64,000 bases of DNA from Pedobacter psychrophilus (GTDB lineage: Bacteria > Bacteroidota > Bacteroidia > Sphingobacteriales > Sphingobacteriaceae): assembly GCF_001652725.1 (NCBI RefSeq), contig NZ_LWHJ01000032.1, positions 62,001 to 126,000 of the forward strand, read 5' to 3'. The notes beneath the pieces were generated by a model, which saw only the letters and a program-made list of their open reading frames with translations, searched no databases and was not told where the DNA came from. The stretch's first letter is position 1. The number at the start of each line of letters is the position of its first letter. Position numbers and translations under genes: made by a program. Below are positions 29,257 to 54,986 of this stretch, piece after piece.

Positions 29257-30504
29257 TTATAATGCTGCTCTCAGCATCAAAGCACCAACAGTAACATTAG
29301 TTCTGCTATCTATAATTATGGCACCACCATTTCTTTTGTTACTTTCATAAGGATCAAAAGCTAATTCATCGGCAGTTTTAATTTCTACTCTGCCAATATC
29401 GTTTAAACCAAAAGTATCGGCATTCACTTTTTCTAAAGTATTGATATTTACTTTGTACAAAACCTCTTTAATTTTACAACGTGTAACTTTACTTTGGTGT
29501 TGGATAAAATAGGTGGCAGTAGTATCCAATTCCCTGGTATCCATCCAACAAATATCAGCTTCAATTTGGTTGGAAACTAAAGGCGAGCGTTCTATTTCTC
29601 CAATCATATCTCCTCGGCTAATGTCAATTTCGTCTTCTAAATGCAGAGTGATTGATTTTCCTTCCTCAGCAATTTGTAAATCACCATCAAAAGTTTCAAT
29701 TCTTTTTATTTTCGATTTATTTCCAGAAGGATAAACTTTAATTTCTTCGCCAACACTTAAGGCTCCACTTAGCACCCTTCCCGCATATCCGCGATAATCA
29801 TGTAATTCATCAGTTTGTGGCCTAACTACCCATTGAACTGCCATTCTTGCCGGTAACAAATGATCTACCTGATGTACAGGAACTGTTTCTAAATGTGCTA
29901 ACAAACTTTTTCCTTTGTACCAAGGCATATTTATCGAATCATTCACAATATTATCACCTTTTAAAGCACTTACAGGAATAAAAGTAACTTCTTTAATCCC
30001 TAATTTAATTGCTAATTGATGATAATCTGCATGAATTTTCTCAAAAACTTCCTCGCTATAATCCACCATGTCCATTTTGTTTACACAAACCACCACATGT
30101 TCTAAAGCCAATAAAGAAACCAAATAAGAATGACGAATAGTTTGCTCTATCACGCCTTTTCTCGCATCCACTAAAATAATAGCTAAATCCGCATTTGAAG
30201 CACCAGTAACCATATTTCTGGTATACTGAATATGCCCTGGAGTATCTGCAATAATGAACTTTCTTTTTTCTGTTTGAAAGTATTTATAAGCAACATCAAT
30301 CGTAATTCCTTGCTCACGTTCTGCCTTTAAACCATCCGTTAAAATGGCTAAATCAACCGTTCCGTCGTCATTTTTTCTGTTCGATTTTTGGATAGCTTCC
30401 AGTTGGTCGGCTAAAACAGAATCAGTATCGTACAAAAGCCTTCCAATCAAAGTGCTTTTTCCATCATCCACACTTCCTGCGGTTAAAAATTTTAATATAT
30501 CCAT
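29257..30504 (-). CDS. cysN: Sulfate adenylyltransferase subunit 1 (GTPase)
   Basis: 415 aa. The EF-Tu-like GTPase half of ATP sulfurylase: it couples GTP hydrolysis to formation of adenosine 5'-phosphosulfate (APS) by CysD. The G1 motif GSVDDGKST is at 10-18, G3 is DTPGHIQYTRNM and G4 is NKMD. The two beta-barrel domains follow. It stops after the third domain, with no C-terminal APS kinase (CysC) as found in NodQ/CysNC fusions. Its ATG overlaps the stop of cysD (TAATG), so the two subunits are coupled, and it is the last gene of the sulfate cluster. Confidence 0.96.
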   Translation of the reverse strand: MDILKFLTAGSVDDGKSTLIGRLLYDTDSVLADQLEAIQKSNRKNDDGTVDLAILTDGLKAEREQGITIDVAYKYFQTEKRKFIIADTPGHIQYTRNMVTGASNADLAIILVDARKGVIEQTIRHSYLVSLLALEHVVVCVNKMDMVDYSEEVFEKIHADYHQLAIKLGIKEVTFIPVSALKGDNIVNDSINMPWYKGKSLLAHLETVPVHQVDHLLPARMAVQWVVRPQTDELHDYRGYAGRVLSGALSVGEEIKVYPSGNKSKIKRIETFDGDLQIAEEGKSITLHLEDEIDISRGDMIGEIERSPLVSNQIEADICWMDTRELDTTATYFIQHQSKVTRCKIKEVLYKVNINTLEKVNADTFGLNDIGRVEIKTADELAFDPYESNKRNGGAIIIDSRTNVTVGALMLRAAL

Positions 30505-31394
30505 TAAAAATATCCTCCTTTTTTACGGTCTTCCATGGCTGCTTCAGAAACTTTATCATCCATTCTAGCACCACGCTCACTTATTTTTGATTGCGAAATC
30601 TCCAAAATAATATCATCTATTTCTGTTTTTTCCGATTCTACAGCTGCAGTACAAGTCATATCACCAACGGTACGGAAACGCACACTTTTTGTATAGATTT
30701 TATCATCAGCATCCATATTTAAAAACTCATGAGCCGCCATCCAAACCCCATTTCGCTCAATAACTTCACGATGATGAGAATAATAAATAGAAGGAATTTC
30801 TATATTTTCTCTTTTGATATAGTTCCAAACATCCAACTCCGTCCAGTTGCTAATCGGGAAAACCCTTACATTTTCTCCTTTATGGATTTTTCCATTAAAG
30901 GTGTTCCAAAGTTCTGGACGTTGGCGCTTTGGATCCCATTGTCCAAATTCATCACGAACAGAAAATATCCTTTCTTTTGCCCTTGCTTTTTCCTCGTCTC
31001 TTCTTGCGCCGCCAATACAGGCATCAAACTGATTTTTTTCAATGACTTCTAAAAGAGAAACAGTTTGCAAAGCATTTCTGCTGGCATTTTTACCTTTTTG
31101 CTCTATCGCTCTTCCACTATCAATAGCATCTTGTACATGCCCAATAATTAATTTCTCGCCAAGTTTTTGAACCAGTTGATCTCTAAATTCAATCACTTCA
31201 GGGAAATTATGGCCAGTATCAACATGTACCAACGGAAAAGGAAACTTTCCCGGACGAAAGGCTTTTTCTGCCAAACGAACCAATGTGATAGAATCTTTTC
31301 CTCCCGAAAAAAGCAAAGCTGGCTTCTCAAACTGTCCTGCTACCTCCCTTAAAATCGCTATGGCTTCCGCCTCTAGTTGATCTAAATAATCCAT
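30504..31394 (-). CDS. cysD: Sulfate adenylyltransferase subunit 2
   Basis: 296 aa, of normal length. This is the catalytic ATP-pyrophosphatase-type subunit that makes APS from ATP and sulfate in a heterodimer with CysN. The PP-loop SGGKDS lies in ALLFSGGKDSITLVRLAEKA, followed by HVDTGHNFPEVIEFRD, ACIGGARRDEEKARAKERI and FPISNWTELDVWNYI, all family signatures. It is coupled to cysN by a one-base overlap of stop and start codons. The 133 bp upstream, before cysH, contain two text-like repeats. Confidence 0.96.
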   Translation of the reverse strand: MDYLDQLEAEAIAILREVAGQFEKPALLFSGGKDSITLVRLAEKAFRPGKFPFPLVHVDTGHNFPEVIEFRDQLVQKLGEKLIIGHVQDAIDSGRAIEQKGKNASRNALQTVSLLEVIEKNQFDACIGGARRDEEKARAKERIFSVRDEFGQWDPKRQRPELWNTFNGKIHKGENVRVFPISNWTELDVWNYIKRENIEIPSIYYSHHREVIERNGVWMAAHEFLNMDADDKIYTKSVRFRTVGDMTCTAAVESEKTEIDDIILEISQSKISERGARMDDKVSEAAMEDRKKGGYF

Positions 31395-31494: not shown

Positions 31495-31532
31495 CTTAAG
31501 ACTCCAGTCCTCAGACTCCCGACTCTCTTAAG
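31495..31532 (-). repeat. Text-like repeat (GACTCCCGACTC type) at the cysH stop
   Basis: Units of ACTCCAGTCC, TCAGACTCCC and GACTCTC bounded by CTTAAG at both ends (31495-31500 and 31527-31532). The right CTTAAG contains the cysH stop codon, so the repeat abuts or replaced the original 3' end of the gene. Confidence 0.6.
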
Positions 31533-32250
31533 GTTTAAAAACTTCCTCATGTGCGCTGGTTTCATGTAATCCACACTCTTTTTTACTCGCATCTTCCCAC
31601 CACCAGCGTCCTGCTCTAAAATCTTCGCCAGGTTGCACCGCTCTTGTGCAAGGTTGGCAACCAATACTTGGAAAGCCTTTGTCATGCAACGGATTATATG
31701 GCACATTTTTCTCTTTCACATAAGCCTTCACGTCTTCTAAAGTCCAGTTAAAAATAGGATGAACTTTTATCAATTGATGCGCTTCATCCCATTCTACCCA
31801 ATCCATATCTTCACGGTTTGCAGATTGCTCTGCTCTAATTCCGGTAATCCAAACTTTTTGCCCAGCCAAAGCTCTATTTAAAGGCTCAACTTTTCTAATT
31901 CCACAACATTCTTTTCTATTCTCTACAGATTCATAAAAGCTACTTGGTCCTTTTTTAGTCACTATCGCTTCCAGCTTTTCTTTATCGGGATAAAAGGCAT
32001 GAATTGGCTTTTTATACCTTTCTAAAGTACGGTTCCAAGTGTAATAAGTTTCTGTAAACAACCTGCCGGTTTCTAAAGTGAAGACTTTGATGTTTAAATC
32101 GGCAGTAAAAATCATATCAGATAATACTTGGTCTTCCCATCCAAAACTGGTAGAAAAAATCAAATCTTCTTTAAAATATGAAACAATAAAAGCCAAAACC
32201 TCTTGAGGTGATTTATCTTTTAATGCGTCTTTTAATTGTTTTATATCCAT
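31528..32250 (-). CDS. cysH: Assimilatory adenylylsulfate (APS) reductase
   Basis: 240 aa. The enzyme reduces activated sulfate to sulfite with thioredoxin. Two cysteine pairs, Cys115-Cys116 (ECCGIRKVEPL) and Cys198-Cys201 (CQPCTR), are the ligands of the [4Fe-4S] cluster that distinguishes APS reductases from PAPS reductases of the E. coli type; the redox-active Cys226 is in ECGLH near the C-terminus. The pyrophosphatase-like nucleotide site is FSTSFGWEDQ. No cysC is present in this cluster, consistent with direct use of APS. It is the first gene after repeat copy A in the spacer at 32268. Confidence 0.93.
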   Translation of the reverse strand: MDIKQLKDALKDKSPQEVLAFIVSYFKEDLIFSTSFGWEDQVLSDMIFTADLNIKVFTLETGRLFTETYYTWNRTLERYKKPIHAFYPDKEKLEAIVTKKGPSSFYESVENRKECCGIRKVEPLNRALAGQKVWITGIRAEQSANREDMDWVEWDEAHQLIKVHPIFNWTLEDVKAYVKEKNVPYNPLHDKGFPSIGCQPCTRAVQPGEDFRAGRWWWEDASKKECGLHETSAHEEVFKP

Positions 32251-32267
32251 TTTTATTTTAATGATTT

Positions 32268-32357
32268 GGGCGTTTTAACACGCTATCCGCTATATCTTTT
32301 TTTGCTATTTGCTAAATGGTTAGTGCAAAAAAAGGATGCCACTTCTATCGTTAACGC
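32268..32357. repeat. Dispersed palindromic element, copy A
   Basis: 90 bp from GGGCGTTTTAACACGCTATC to TCGTTAACGC. The core TCTTTTTTTGC and GCAAAAAAAGGA form an internal inverted repeat. A copy of the same length is at 48369 and a relative in the opposite orientation at 54885. It occupies the spacer between the TSUP fusion and cysH. Confidence 0.85.
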
Positions 32358-32384
32358 AAAACCTTTTATCCTCAAGTATAATAA

Positions 32385-33902
32385 TTAAAAAGCCATTAAA
32401 AACTTACCAATGCTGCGCAAACTTACTAAAATAACAATGATCGAAACTGCTACCATAATGGTTTTTGCTGATATTTTATTCGATATTCTTGCAGCGATTG
32501 GTGATGCAATTGCACTTCCCAAAACCAAACCAGCAACGGCGTACCAATGTAATCCGTTTAGCATCGTCACAAAAGTTAAAGAACTCATTAGCGCAATAAA
32601 AAAACGACTTAATTTTACAGTTCCTAAGGAGTAACGGGCATTTCTTCCTCCGGCAATTAATGAAGACAAAACAATCGATCCCCAGCCGCCACCACCAACT
32701 GCGTCTATAAAACCTCCTGTAAAACCCAAAACACCTATTTTTTTAATTTTTGGACCAGCTTTGGCATTTTTTAATTTTAAAACGCCAGATTTTTTTAAAA
32801 TCACGAAACCTAAAATTAAAGTATAAAGCGAAATTAAAGGTTTAGTATAATGTGCGTATTCTTCTAATGATGATAATAAAAAAGCTCCTAAAACAGCTCC
32901 GATAATTCCGGGAATCAGCAATAGTTTTAATAATTTTTTGTTGATGTTTCCCATTCTATAATGCATCCAACCGGCAATTCCATTACTTAAAATTTCTGAA
33001 ATATGAACCGCTGTACTTGCAGAAGCGGGTGGAATTCCCATTGATAGAGAAAATGTGGTAGAGGTTACTCCATAAGACATTCCTATTGCTCCATCTATCA
33101 TTGCGAAGATAAATCCTGCTATTAAAAACCAATAAAATTGTGGATTAACACCAGCAACATAATTACGGAAAACAGGTTCTTCTTTCCATAATACATAAAA
33201 GATGATAGCCGCAAAAACCACCACAAAACTCCAAATGATATAACTTAAGGTTGCTGGCTTTAAATTTTTATCTGGTTGTTTTTCAGAAACTAAACTTGCA
33301 GTCGCCTGGTTTAACGCTTTTACTTTATCGCTAAAATCGCCTTTAAGGGTTAATCTTAATTTATTGATTTGTTCTAAAGTATCATCAATTTCATTAGGAA
33401 TGTTTTCGTTTAAAACTTCTTTAATGCGTTTTGCAACCGTGGGCGATTTTCCGTTGGTTGAAATAGCGATTTTTAAATTTCCCTTTTTTACGATGGAACC
33501 TAAATAAAAATCACAAAGTTCTGGAGTATCTGCTACATTTAAAAGCAAGCCTTTTTCTTTTGCTATTTTTCTGATATATTCATGAAGTTCACGGTTATCA
33601 GTAGCTAAAATTACGAGTTCAATATCGTTTAAATCCTCATCCTGAAATTTGCGTTCTATTATATTAACCGATGGATGGTGGATGACTAATTCCTTCAACT
33701 CCGGTAAAAAACGATCAGCAACTACATTTACTTTGGCTTTTGGAGAATTGCCCAATAAAGCACTTAATTTCTCTAAACCTACATTTCCACCACCAACTAA
33801 TAAAGTTTGAAAGTTTTGTAGCTTTAAGAAAACGGGAAATAATTCGTTTCCATTTCCTTCATCTATGATTTTATCATCGTTATTCTGTGTCAACAAACTC
33901 AT
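32385..33902 (-). CDS. Fusion of precorrin-2 dehydrogenase-like domain and TSUP (TauE/SafE) transporter
   Basis: 505 aa. Residues about 20-215 are a siroheme-synthase N-terminal domain with the dinucleotide motif LLVGGGNVGLEKL and the family block STNGKSPTVAKRIKEVL; it oxidises precorrin-2 to sirohydrochlorin. Residues about 220-505 form seven or eight membrane helices of the TSUP family (IDGAIGMSYGVTSTTFSLSMG, SASTAVHISEILSNGIAGWMHY, GFIDAVGGGGWG), which move sulfur compounds such as sulfate, sulfite or taurine. The fusion joins siroheme synthesis for the reductase to a probable sulfate importer in one polypeptide. The start overlaps cobA by 23 nt. The ferrochelatase step is not covered by a separate gene here. 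Confidence 0.88.
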   Translation of the reverse strand: MSLLTQNNDDKIIDEGNGNELFPVFLKLQNFQTLLVGGGNVGLEKLSALLGNSPKAKVNVVADRFLPELKELVIHHPSVNIIERKFQDEDLNDIELVILATDNRELHEYIRKIAKEKGLLLNVADTPELCDFYLGSIVKKGNLKIAISTNGKSPTVAKRIKEVLNENIPNEIDDTLEQINKLRLTLKGDFSDKVKALNQATASLVSEKQPDKNLKPATLSYIIWSFVVVFAAIIFYVLWKEEPVFRNYVAGVNPQFYWFLIAGFIFAMIDGAIGMSYGVTSTTFSLSMGIPPASASTAVHISEILSNGIAGWMHYRMGNINKKLLKLLLIPGIIGAVLGAFLLSSLEEYAHYTKPLISLYTLILGFVILKKSGVLKLKNAKAGPKIKKIGVLGFTGGFIDAVGGGGWGSIVLSSLIAGGRNARYSLGTVKLSRFFIALMSSLTFVTMLNGLHWYAVAGLVLGSAIASPIAARISNKISAKTIMVAVSIIVILVSLRSIGKFLMAF

Positions 33903-34647
33903 AAGATGATAAAATAGGTTGAAAAGTTGGATGCAGACTAACTACTTCTCCAATTACGATTATCGCAGGAGCACCAATTTTGTTCTCCTCAATTTGTTCT
34001 ACAATGGTATTCATTACTCCAACTGCAGCCTTTTCTTTTGGGGTCGAACCATTTTGTATGATAGCAACAGGCAATCGGCCTAAGCCATTATTTTTATAAA
34101 TCTCAACAATTTCTTTAATTTTATTTACGCCCATTAAAATTACAACCGTTGCTTTTGTTTTTACGGCAACCTTTAAATCGTTAGAGATTTCTCCGTTTGC
34201 TTTTGTACCGGTAATTACCCAAAAACTCTCGCTTAAACCACGATGTGTTAAAGGAATGCCTTGCAAAGCAGGAACGGAAATTGAGCTAGAGATTCCAGGA
34301 ATTACTTCTGTTTGGATGTTGTAAGAATGCGCAAAATCAATCTCTTCATAACCTCTTCCAAAAACGAAAGGGTCGCCACCTTTTAAACGGACAACGTATC
34401 CATATCTTAAAGCACTATCCACTAAAAGTTGGTTAATTTCTTGTTGTTTTAAAGAATGTTGTCCAGCTCTTTTACCTACAAATATTTTGATGGAATTTTC
34501 TGGAGCCATTTCTAACAAGGCTTCATTTACCAAAGCATCGTACAATACAACCTCGGCTTTAGCCAAAGCTTTTGCACCTTTTATGCTAATTAATTCTGCA
34601 TCGCCGGGACCGGCACCAATTAAAGTTATTTTAGGTTCTAGTACCAT
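33880..34647 (-). CDS. cobA: Uroporphyrinogen-III C-methyltransferase
   Basis: 255 aa. It methylates uroporphyrinogen III twice with S-adenosylmethionine to give precorrin-2. The N-terminal GAGPGDAELISIKG, the RLKGGDPFVFGRG block and the VIPGISSSISVPALQGIPLTHRG block are diagnostic for the SUMT family (CobA, or the CysG C-terminal half). Together with the fused dehydrogenase domain of the next gene it makes the siroheme cofactor of the sulfite reductase encoded immediately upstream. One base separates it from that gene. Confidence 0.95.
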   Translation of the reverse strand: MVLEPKITLIGAGPGDAELISIKGAKALAKAEVVLYDALVNEALLEMAPENSIKIFVGKRAGQHSLKQQEINQLLVDSALRYGYVVRLKGGDPFVFGRGYEEIDFAHSYNIQTEVIPGISSSISVPALQGIPLTHRGLSESFWVITGTKANGEISNDLKVAVKTKATVVILMGVNKIKEIVEIYKNNGLGRLPVAIIQNGSTPKEKAAVGVMNTIVEQIEENKIGAPAIIVIGEVVSLHPTFQPILSSYEFVDTE

Positions 34648-34648
34648 T

Positions 34649-36745
34649 TTATGCTAATTCTTGGTTTGGCCTAAAAGCTTTTACCTTGTTTAAAAAATCA
34701 TTTGCTTCTGCTAAATAAGCTTCAGCGAAAGCGGGAGAAGGCTCATTTTTATTGATTTGTAGCACTAAATCACTAAAACTTTTAATGCCAAACTCTTCAG
34801 CAAATTCTTCATCAAACTTGTTTATAACACCTGTTTGTGTACTTTGGTTAATGCCTTTATCTAATAATAATGCTTTTGCTCCGCTAACCATTGTGTTGTA
34901 AGTGTGATAAATTGCATCTGCCCAAGCTTTATTATCGTAAGCTTCATTAGCCCAACCAAATTTCTCTTCTGCTTCGTAAATTAATGTGGCTACTAAATCA
35001 ATTACAACTCCGGCACATTCGCCCACACCAATTGCGGTAACAAAGGTTTCTTCATGTCCCCAATCCACAAATTCATCATCTTTAACATCCGACTGGTCTG
35101 CGATTGGTTTTAATAATTGATAGAAATAATCTTTCCCTAATTCATCGTAATAAGCATGAAAATTTTGATAGAAATTACCTTTAATTTTATAATCATCCAA
35201 AATAGCTCTCAAAACGTGAGGTGCTCTTTTAGAGGGAACTTTTAAAACTTTATCAGCAGCCCTGCCAATACCATCGCCAACAATTCCTCCTCCTAATAAA
35301 ACCTGAACAGAAGGCATTACTTTACCGTCAACTTTCATAGAACTTCCATGGAAACCAATGTGGGCTAAACCATGTTGACCACAACTATTCATGCAGCCAC
35401 TAATTTTTATTTTTATTTCTTTGTCTGCTACAAAATCAGGATATTCCTCGTAGATAACTGATTCTAAAACTCTTGATAGTTCCATAGAATTAGAAATTCC
35501 CAAATTACAAGTATCTGTTCCGGGGCAAGTGGTTACATCGGCAACGCCATCAAAACCTGGTGCAGCTAATTTTAATTCATCCAAAGCCAAGAAAAGATTT
35601 GGTAAAACTTCTGGTCTAACAAACTTCAATAGTAAACCTTGGTTAATAGTTATCCTGATTTCATCAGCAACCAAATCTTTAATAGCAGCCACAAAAGCTC
35701 TAGCCTGATTAGTTGGAATATCTCCGGTTTGCACTTTTATATAAACACCAAAAAAACCAGCTTGCTTTTGCTCAAAAATATTAGTTGCTTTCCATAAATC
35801 ATAAGCCAATTGCTTTTCTTTAGGAATGGCTAAAGTTTCAACTTTAATTTCTGAAGCTTGAGGTTGAATAATTGAATCACGATTGATTTTAAATGTTTTT
35901 GATTTGTTGGCAATTTGTTCCTCGGCAACCAATCTAATCACTTCTTCAATCCCCAACTTGTTCACTAAAAACTTTAACCGAGCTTTATTTCTGTTGTTTC
36001 TTTCACCGTATCGGTCAAAAACCCTTAACACAGATTCTGAAAATGGAATTATTAAATCTTCATGCAAAAATTCATGAACAACATGTGCTAATGAAGGCTG
36101 CGCTCCCAAACCACCGCCTAAAACAACCTTAAATCCTCTCACTTCTTCACCGTTTTCTTGTTTGATTTTTGGGATAAAACCTAAATCATGAATAAAAGAA
36201 AAAGCTGTATCTGCTTCGCTAGAAGAAAAAGCAATTTTAATTTTTCTGCCCATTTCTTGGCAGATTGGATTTCTTAAAAAATACTCGAAAAAAGCCTGAG
36301 CATAAGGCGAAACATCAAAGGGTTCTGTAGGGTCAATTCCTGCAGTTGGGGAAGCGGTTACGTTTCTTACGGTATTGCCGCAAGCTTCGCGTAAAGTAAT
36401 ATCATCTTTTTCAAGCTCCGACCAAAGTTGAGGTGTTCTATCTAAACTTACGTAATGGATTTGTATATCCTGACGGGTAGTTAAATGCAGATTTGAAGAT
36501 GCATATTCATCAGAAACGTCAGCTATTTTAAGGATTTGCTTAAAAGTTATTTTTCCATAAGGCAATTTAATACGCACCATTTGAACCCCAGCCTGGCGTT
36601 GGCCATAAACGCCACGAGCCAAACGTAGACTTCTAAACTTTTCTTCGTGGATTTTACCTTCATGAAAAGCCCTAATCTTTTTTTCAAGATCAATGATATC
36701 TTGCTCTACTAATGGATTTTCTAATTCTGTTCTAAAACTTTGCAT
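34649..36745 (-). CDS. Siroheme [4Fe-4S] sulfite/nitrite reductase with C-terminal HEPN-like domain
   Basis: 698 aa. Two ferredoxin-like and siroheme-binding halves form the reductase; the siroheme/4Fe-4S ligands are Cys407 and Cys413 (TTCPGTDTCNLG) and Cys451 and Cys455 (GCMNSCGQHG). Residues about 565-690 are a helical HEPN-like domain found in Bacteroidota members of the family. The gene sits in a sulfate cluster, so it most likely reduces sulfite to sulfide; nitrite cannot be excluded by sequence. It is the first structural gene after the Cys leader and attenuator, which would regulate it and the following cobA and TSUP genes. Confidence 0.9.
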   Translation of the reverse strand: MQSFRTELENPLVEQDIIDLEKKIRAFHEGKIHEEKFRSLRLARGVYGQRQAGVQMVRIKLPYGKITFKQILKIADVSDEYASSNLHLTTRQDIQIHYVSLDRTPQLWSELEKDDITLREACGNTVRNVTASPTAGIDPTEPFDVSPYAQAFFEYFLRNPICQEMGRKIKIAFSSSEADTAFSFIHDLGFIPKIKQENGEEVRGFKVVLGGGLGAQPSLAHVVHEFLHEDLIIPFSESVLRVFDRYGERNNRNKARLKFLVNKLGIEEVIRLVAEEQIANKSKTFKINRDSIIQPQASEIKVETLAIPKEKQLAYDLWKATNIFEQKQAGFFGVYIKVQTGDIPTNQARAFVAAIKDLVADEIRITINQGLLLKFVRPEVLPNLFLALDELKLAAPGFDGVADVTTCPGTDTCNLGISNSMELSRVLESVIYEEYPDFVADKEIKIKISGCMNSCGQHGLAHIGFHGSSMKVDGKVMPSVQVLLGGGIVGDGIGRAADKVLKVPSKRAPHVLRAILDDYKIKGNFYQNFHAYYDELGKDYFYQLLKPIADQSDVKDDEFVDWGHEETFVTAIGVGECAGVVIDLVATLIYEAEEKFGWANEAYDNKAWADAIYHTYNTMVSGAKALLLDKGINQSTQTGVINKFDEEFAEEFGIKSFSDLVLQINKNEPSPAFAEAYLAEANDFLNKVKAFRPNQELA

Positions 36746-36756
36746 ACATTTTTAAT

Positions 36757-36788
36757 AAAAAAACCCCTTCTAAATTTTGAAGAGGCTT
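36757..36788 (-). terminator. Attenuator terminator before the sulfite reductase gene
   Basis: On the minus strand AAGCCTCTTC, an 8-nt loop AAAATTTA, then GAAGGGGTTT and a T-run. Ten pairs form with two G-T wobbles. It lies 23 bp after the stop of the leader ORF and 11 bp before the reductase ATG, so it can only end transcripts before the structural genes. Confidence 0.88.
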
Positions 36789-36811
36789 AATTAACACACA
36801 TTAAAATAGGT

Positions 36812-36904
36812 TTATTTTGGTGCAACACTCCCCGTATTATCTTTGTTTAACTGCATACAGCAGCAACTTTTTGTTTTGCTTTTAAATGAAAATGAAATTC
36901 TCAT
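36812..36904 (-). CDS. Cysteine leader peptide (uORF)
   Basis: 30 codons: MRISFSFKSKTKSCCCMQLN followed by KDNTGSVAPK and TAA. Codons 14-16 (36857-36865) are TGC TGC TGT. The reading frame ends 23 bp before an intrinsic terminator, which in turn precedes the sulfite reductase gene. Cys is rare in proteins, so a run of three is unlikely by chance and would stall ribosomes when Cys-tRNA is low. It is too short for routine gene calling. A regulatory role is inferred from the arrangement; no protein function is expected. Confidence 0.82.
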   Translation of the reverse strand: MRISFSFKSKTKSCCCMQLNKDNTGSVAPK

Positions 36905-36916: not shown

Positions 36917-37028
36917 TATAAAGTCTATGTATTTAGTAGATTTAATTTAAAAAAGTTTAAAAAAGATATAATCAATTGTTATTTACAATATTAATGAGGT
37001 TTTATTGAGTGAAATAATATTTAAATAT

Positions 37029-48368: not shown

Positions 48369-48458
48369 GGGCGTTTTAACACGCTATCCACTATATCTTT
48401 TTTGCCAATGTGCATAGTGGTTAATTGCAAAAAAGGATGCCGTTTCTATCGTTAACGC
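48369..48458. repeat. Dispersed palindromic element, copy B
   Basis: 90 bp, same orientation and length as copy A at 32268: GGGCGTTTTAACACGCTATC to TCGTTAACGC, core TCTTTTTTGCC ... TGCAAAAAAGGATG. About 80% of the bases agree with copy A. It lies between the protease gene and the terminator of the BlaR1 gene. Confidence 0.85.
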
Positions 48459-48509
48459 AAAAAACCAAATCAGATAATGCTTGGTGATTTTAATTAACTC
48501 CGTTTAAAA

Positions 48510-54877: not shown

Positions 54878-54884
54878 GTTTTTT

Positions 54885-54986
54885 GCGTTAGGGATTACAG
54901 CGGTATACTTTTTTTCTTTTTCTGAAAAAGAGATTTAGCGGAAAGCCCGACATCATTTGCCCAATTAGGCAAATGATGTAACGCCC
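54885..54986. repeat. Dispersed palindromic element, copy C (inverted)
   Basis: 102 bp from GCGTTAGGGATTACAGCGG to TAACGCCC, opposite in orientation to copies A and B. It contains an additional perfect hairpin CATCATTTGCC/GGCAAATGATG and the block AGCGGAAAGCCCGA seen in the wider family. Its TTTCTTTTTCTGAAAAAGA core is an inverted repeat. It sits between the convergent truA and barrel genes and may act as their terminator. Confidence 0.8.

Follow-up and report, generated by a model that had tools for sequence, protein, structure and literature searches.

Classical attenuators of the trp, his, leu and ilv type consist of a leader ORF whose codons include those for the product of the pathway, an antiterminator and an intrinsic terminator placed before the first gene. 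The mycobacterial polycysteine attenuators, which are leaderless short ORFs (Canestrari 2020), respond to cysteine and are cited as translational in passages of PMC13236596 and PMC9031893. In Bacteroidota, passages of two transcriptome studies present short ORFs in long 5' UTRs as candidate leader-peptide attenuators (PMC9723704, PMC7366714), and in Flavobacterium psychrophilum short 5' UTR ORFs precede amino-acid operons, for which attenuation was proposed (PMC9723704). Those passages yielded no cysteine or sulfite reductase case, although the supplementary tables of the two studies may contain one; likewise, no Bacteroidota cysteine attenuator was found among the articles that our literature search covered. 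Moreover, sulfur amino-acid genes are regulated by the SAM-I riboswitch (RF00162).

Here we describe a locus within a 64,000-nucleotide stretch of Pedobacter psychrophilus DNA (the window), in which the sulfite reductase gene is preceded by a short ORF in which codons for cysteine, the end product, stand in a row, and by an intrinsic terminator between the stop codon of this leader and the first gene. With a probability of about 0.85, we read it as a ribosome-mediated transcription attenuator that senses charged Cys-tRNA, perhaps also Met-tRNA, and controls the sulfite reductase, or assimilatory sulfate reduction, operon. Judged by its computable features, the leader would work like a classical attenuator, sharing the product-codon ORF, the antiterminator and the terminator upstream of the first gene, but it differs in being directed to cysteine (perhaps methionine), in being probably leaderless, in having no clear anti-antiterminator, and in the tandem units found at 7 of 37 loci across the class. 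With the mycobacterial ORFs it shares contiguous Cys codons, a predicted leaderless short ORF and a position upstream of sulfur genes, whereas the competing pairing, the Met enrichment and the terminator set it apart from those ORFs as they have been described, and because of the terminator we do not class it with them. It resembles the Bacteroidota transcriptome candidates in the short ORF of the 5' region and in the idea of attenuation. If correct, a complete cysteine attenuator, with leader, competing pairing and terminator, would be added to the actinobacterial leaders, which passages of PMC1262725 describe as having no obvious terminators.

Leader, terminator and operon in the window

The first-pass annotation had reported a cysteine leader ORF, its Cys run, a GGGGAG segment, a terminator hairpin and the sulfite reductase start, and on re-reading the sequence its coordinates were exact to the base. 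The features of the locus are the following:

36924..36940, minus strand: promoter element TCTACTAAATACATAGA, a possible regulator site; similar elements lie before the -7 box in relatives
36916-36909, minus strand: Bacteroidota -7 box TATATTTG (TAnnTTTG), from the sequence
36904, minus strand: predicted transcription start at the A of the leader ATG, from TTTG plus 4 nt
36904-36812, minus strand: leader ORF MRISFSFKSKTKSCCCMQLNKDNTGSVAPK, 30 codons, from the sequence; Cys-containing counterparts in relatives
36865-36857, minus strand: Cys codons 14-16 (TGC TGC TGT), from the sequence; predicted stall site
36833-36828, minus strand: predicted antiterminator strand GGGGAG, partner of the terminator 5' arm (fold without the 3' arm; position model)
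36814-36812, minus strand: leader stop codon, from the sequence
36788-36761, minus strand: intrinsic terminator hairpin (terminator scan; counterparts in relatives)
34649..36745, minus strand: siroheme sulfite reductase (NIR_SIR and NIR_SIR_ferr domains; weak C-terminal HEPN match)
33880..34647, minus strand: uroporphyrinogen-III C-methyltransferase (TIGR01469 above cut-off)
32385..33902, minus strand: siroheme synthase N-terminal domains fused to a TauE/SafE permease (PF13241, PF14824, PF01925)
31528..32250, minus strand: cysH, (P)APS reductase (TIGR00434 and NF002537 above cut-off)
30504..31394, minus strand: cysD (TIGR02039 above cut-off)
29257..30504, minus strand: cysN (TIGR02034 above cut-off)

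The GGGGAG segment covers the last base of codon 24, codon 25 and the first two bases of codon 26. The terminator stem, which begins 23 nt after the leader stop, is formed by AAGCCTCTTC, an 8-nt loop and GAAGGGGTTT (10 pairs, -11.8 kcal/mol); its T-tract ends at about 36757, and the hairpin lies some 15 nt upstream of the sulfite reductase ATG at 36745. Taken alone, this hairpin is within chance: over 3.5 kb, chance would give 2.3 terminator-like sites, and the scan found 2. The folding of the leader as a whole is only moderately better than that of its shuffles (z -1.69, 13/200 equally good). Conservation was therefore chosen as the test, and it is conservation in relatives that raises the hairpin above chance.

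Downstream of the leader, sulfite reductase, the siroheme genes, cysH, cysD and cysN follow on one strand. Since the NCBIfam sulfite/nitrite reductase models match the first enzyme only below their cut-offs, the name sulfite reductase rests on its domains and the operon context. An Rfam scan of the window at the gathering threshold gave no riboswitch or T-box match at the leader, SAM-I included, and matched three Flavo-1 RNAs (RF01705; 32272-32362 minus, 48373-48463 minus and 54880-54956 plus), of which the one at 32272-32362 occupies the intra-operon gap upstream of cysH.

Between the end of the -7 box and the leader ATG lie exactly 4 nt, a spacing kept in 48/69 leaders of the family set described below (window included). 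According to passages of PMC9723704, mapped starts in F. psychrophilum have the TAnnTTTG box at -12 to -5; the leader AUG would therefore sit at +1, and the predicted mRNA is probably leaderless, or nearly so, in the Sphingobacteriaceae set. The same two transcriptome studies, as far as their passages go, give leaderless mRNAs as 5.5% in F. psychrophilum (PMC9723704) and 5' UTRs shorter than 10 nt as about 3.7% in B. thetaiotaomicron (PMC7366714), and describe the phylum as one where Shine-Dalgarno signals are absent and leaderless mRNAs rare (PMC7366714, PMC9723704).

We infer that transcription begins at or beside the leader AUG and that a ribosome loads on the nearly leaderless mRNA. With Cys-tRNA scarce, the ribosome would stall at codons 14-16 and leave the downstream G-rich segment free to capture the terminator's 5' arm while the 3' arm has yet to be synthesised, so that RNA polymerase would enter the operon. 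With cysteine plentiful, it would reach the stop codon and cover the G-rich segment, and the terminator would form before sulfite reductase.

Recurrence of the module among relatives

The family set comprised 81 loci, the window locus and the best 80 of at least 581 confirmed matches. Seven rows were adjusted by hand before the tally: leaders were credited at L055, L063 and L076 and discounted at L077, and terminators were credited at L031, L032 and L048, whose hairpins are visible under the scan threshold. After this adjustment, a leader with at least one Cys together with a terminator was present in 67/81 loci, neither in 11/81, a terminator only in 3/81 (L003, L005, L008) and a leader only in none, the terminator thus standing upstream of sulfite reductase in 70/81. 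Leader and terminator are also lost together: the enzyme tree offers 10 independent pairs with a difference in the leader, and among these the terminator was concordant in 7, opposite in 0 and not different in 3 (sign test, p 0.016). When short ORFs were called by position only (start within 25 nt of a -7 box), 69/81 loci had one, with Cys in 65/69 and CC or CxC in 54/69, and a stricter rule of three Cys in six residues was passed by 27/81 loci (controls: reverse strand 2, shuffles 1). At L020, L021, L061, L064 and L075 the module is absent and the promoter is kept close upstream of the gene.

The alignment of relatives proposed by the first-pass annotation thus bore it out in most loci, where the Cys leader, the terminator and the competing pairing recur. 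It had also held that missing Cys codons or a missing hairpin in close relatives would speak against an attenuator; in L003, one of the two closest relatives, the Cys leader is indeed absent, and the terminator is kept.

At the level of the class, 149 Bacteroidia genomes were screened, of which 38, our own included, had the enzyme at E 1e-60, giving 37 loci (G136 has a further, partial sulfite reductase match outside this set, and L119 contains masked bases). The rule demanded an 8-50-codon ORF in which two Cys fall within four residues, followed within 110 nt by a T-tracted hairpin of -8 kcal/mol or lower. Leader and terminator were found in 21/37 loci, against 0/37 on the reverse strand and 0/37 in shuffles, and outside Sphingobacteriaceae in 19/33 loci belonging to 13 families. 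L083 was missed by the rule; by eye, it has an upstream Cys- and Met-containing ORF and a hairpin. Furthermore, two leader-terminator units stand in tandem at the seven loci L092, L094, L095, L098, L105, L108 and L119.

Competing pairing and rival explanations

When the RNA is folded without the 3' arm of the terminator, a segment near the leader stop pairs with the 5' arm in most loci. In most relatives this antiterminator strand surrounds or closely follows the leader stop (median position -4 to +10 relative to it); the window differs from them in having it inside the ORF. Cognate arms of antiterminator and terminator form better duplexes than swapped arms do (z -3.7, 0/5000 permutations), while plain duplex energy is better than in dinucleotide shuffles, at the 5% level, for only 12/60 loci (median z -0.62); both tests used the 60/81 loci with a rule-called Cys leader and a scanned terminator, related loci being counted repeatedly.

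Ribosome position was modelled with a constrained partition function, in which the ribosome footprint is held unpaired and the score is the sequestration of the 5' arm. For the window, the score was 0.79 with the ribosome stalled, 0.14 with it at the stop codon and 0.79 without a ribosome, which reproduces, with shuffles far below over the whole set, the earlier proposal that a stall on Cys frees GGGGAG and a ribosome at the stop covers it. Over the 61/81 family loci that had a rule-called Cys leader and a scanned terminator, among which related loci are again counted repeatedly, the scores were 0.61, 0.35 and 0.46, respectively; the expected direction (stalled above stop) was seen in 54/61, and the stalled-minus-stop difference was 0.258, which shuffling of the intervening RNA brought down to 0.061 +/- 0.019. 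Outside the family, 27 units from 19 loci, called with a stall codon rule slightly different from that of the family run, gave 0.78 stalled, 0.42 at the stop and 0.73 without a ribosome, with the expected direction in 23/27 and a difference of 0.354 against 0.042 +/- 0.036 in shuffles (L084 and L085 were excluded as family members, and two L098 ORFs that share one terminator are both included). By computation, then, an antiterminator that would exclude the terminator is gated by ribosome position. Since sequestration without a ribosome is near the stalled level in the window and in the outside set, the model predicts readthrough for a leader that is not translated.

Covariation was sought in three alignments (24, 22 and 12 sequences). 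The Pedobacter alignment of 24 sequences gave no consensus antiterminator, and its terminator helix had no excess covariation over shuffles; the Mucilaginibacter terminator helix did have such an excess (0/500 shuffles reach its score). Antiterminator pairs changed on both sides were no more frequent than in shuffles in two alignments (1 vs 1.1 and 1 vs 0.8); the number of sequences so changed was equalled in only 10/500 and 19/500 shuffles, though with about two independent events this is non-significant. In the Mucilaginibacter alignment, one terminator base covaries with both competing partners in five sequences, again about two independent events.

What the leader reads bears on a reading in which the nascent peptide itself is the sensor, its cysteines binding a metal, an Fe-S cluster or sulfide instead of reporting tRNA charging. 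CC and CxC clusters resemble metal-binding motifs, and sulfite reductase requires siroheme and an Fe-S cluster; against this, the peptides diverge widely and have little in common except Cys and Met, and several retain a single Cys adjoining Met. Compared with shuffles and with the start codon excluded, the position-called family ORFs are enriched in Cys (4.6x, z 22) and internal Met (4.2x, z 16), mildly in Asn (1.65x), Gln (1.42x), Thr (1.3x) and Lys (1.17x), and not in His (0.86x). Outside the family, Met stands at 5.1x, His at 0.85x and Cys at 4.6x, Cys being there the criterion by which the ORFs were selected. Both Cys codons are used in the family leaders (106 TGT, 66 TGC), and an NCBIfam search with five leader peptides returned no model. 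The enrichment of Cys and Met, together with the use of both Cys codons, favours charging of sulfur amino-acid tRNAs over a metal-binding peptide, and we regard the peptide sensor as very improbable. The signal may thus comprise both sulfur amino acids, with the Met part less certain, as some of the internal ATG codons may be alternative starts.

Two other rivals concern the hairpin. It could be the terminator of the upstream gene, with the short ORF there by chance, and indeed that gene lies on the same strand and chance alone would yield comparable hairpins at about the same rate; yet a promoter box intervenes, the window's neighbour stands upstream of sulfite reductase in 0/80 relatives, and 13 of the 16 relatives (of 80) whose nearest upstream ORF is divergent have leader and terminator. 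Because the upstream neighbour is not conserved and the module is kept behind divergent ORFs, we assign the module to sulfite reductase and give this alternative hardly any credence. A less remote one, though still unlikely, is that the leader acts on sulfite reductase translation or through Rho, with an incidental hairpin, in the manner of actinobacterial cysteine leaders, which passages of PMC1262725 describe without obvious terminators and of which those of M. smegmatis are cited as translational attenuators in passages of PMC13236596 and PMC9031893. A qualifying terminator is also missing at most metY loci and at all five cysH loci with Cys-rich ORFs (see below). It is the constancy of the hairpin that argues against this, since a T-tracted hairpin accompanies every family Cys leader at sulfite reductase (67/67) and the two are lost together.

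Promoter element and other sulfur genes

The element TCTACTAAATACATAGA upstream of the -7 box is a candidate for a possible second layer of control at the DNA level, and elements resembling it persist in several relatives without the attenuator. In the own genome it has one exact copy and two more with one mismatch; a search there for a second full copy found none, and pattern counts for the palindrome-like element were no higher than those of a reversed-pattern control. It resembles the own-genome palindromes CTACTAAATYAGTAG at L252 and L251, whose neighbours we take to be an Rrf2-like gene (L252) and a downstream peroxiredoxin-like gene (L251). At L252 (G000:C22:774651), the CTACTAAATYAGTAG palindromes are separated from a TonB-receptor-like gene by an ORF, MILKIAHRLTEISYRSGRCC, that diverges from the Rrf2-like gene; this ORF, ending in RSGRCC, was set aside as not recurrent (2/295 genomes, the other one in an unrelated setting).

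Cys leaders were also sought with the pattern ATGATGTGYTGYTGY in 395 Bacteroidia, where 65 genomes matched and only 10 of the 70 inspected places were leader-like: at sulfite reductase (L136, L179), metY (L149, L154, L165, L167), cysC (L170, a presumably cysC-like gene named from sequence), cysH (L171, L173) and a contig end (L182). By appearance, the remaining places are chance or pieces of other genes, and for this reason the count was discarded as evidence.

The metY set, built with L167, an O-acetylhomoserine sulfhydrylase (TIGR01326), comprised 25 loci at E 1e-140, including the query itself (L220). Short ORFs passing the rule of three Cys in six residues were present in 15/25 (reverse strand 0/25, shuffle 1/25), and 7/25 passed the leader-plus-terminator rule, some far upstream. 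A SAM-I riboswitch was found at 15 of the 20 metY loci scanned, and coordinate comparison placed a Cys-rich ORF between aptamer and metY in 10/15 (L230 from an internal ATG). The loci with SAM-I, then the Cys-rich ORF, then metY are L223, L227, L229, L230, L232, L233, L234, L236, L237 and L239. In this context, riboswitch and ORF would form two sulfur sensors in series, the role of the ORF being predicted. The own genome had no metY match at E 1e-140; at L246 (G000:C27:197554-197656, minus strand), it has a SAM-I element followed by an ORF ending in TICMCYFMS, and the gene after these is, we assume, homoserine dehydrogenase-like.

At even odds, sulfur assimilation in Bacteroidia would be governed by fast-evolving attenuators of Cys and Met codons, leaderless in Sphingobacteriaceae, sometimes in tandem, and elsewhere placed behind SAM-I at metY or the presumed homoserine dehydrogenase-like gene, thereby integrating, on one transcript, the SAM level with Cys- and Met-tRNA charging. 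If so, this would be a class-wide RNA regulon based on ribosome stalling. The proposed attenuator, recurring in 13 families besides Sphingobacteriaceae in a phylum where leaderless mRNAs are reported to be rare, offers a model of the control of cysteine supply that can be tested directly. The tandem and riboswitch-coupled layouts would offer natural material for studies of signal integration.

At cysH, leader and terminator together were found in 0/29 loci (12 further matches fall outside this count, and L206 had only 13 nt upstream), and a Cys-rich ORF alone in 5/28, against 1 on the reverse strand and 0 in shuffles. These ORFs (L197, L198, L200, L201, which is the same place as L171, and L202, the same as L173) have up to seven consecutive Cys codons with the qualifying terminator absent, and perhaps represent another mode of control.
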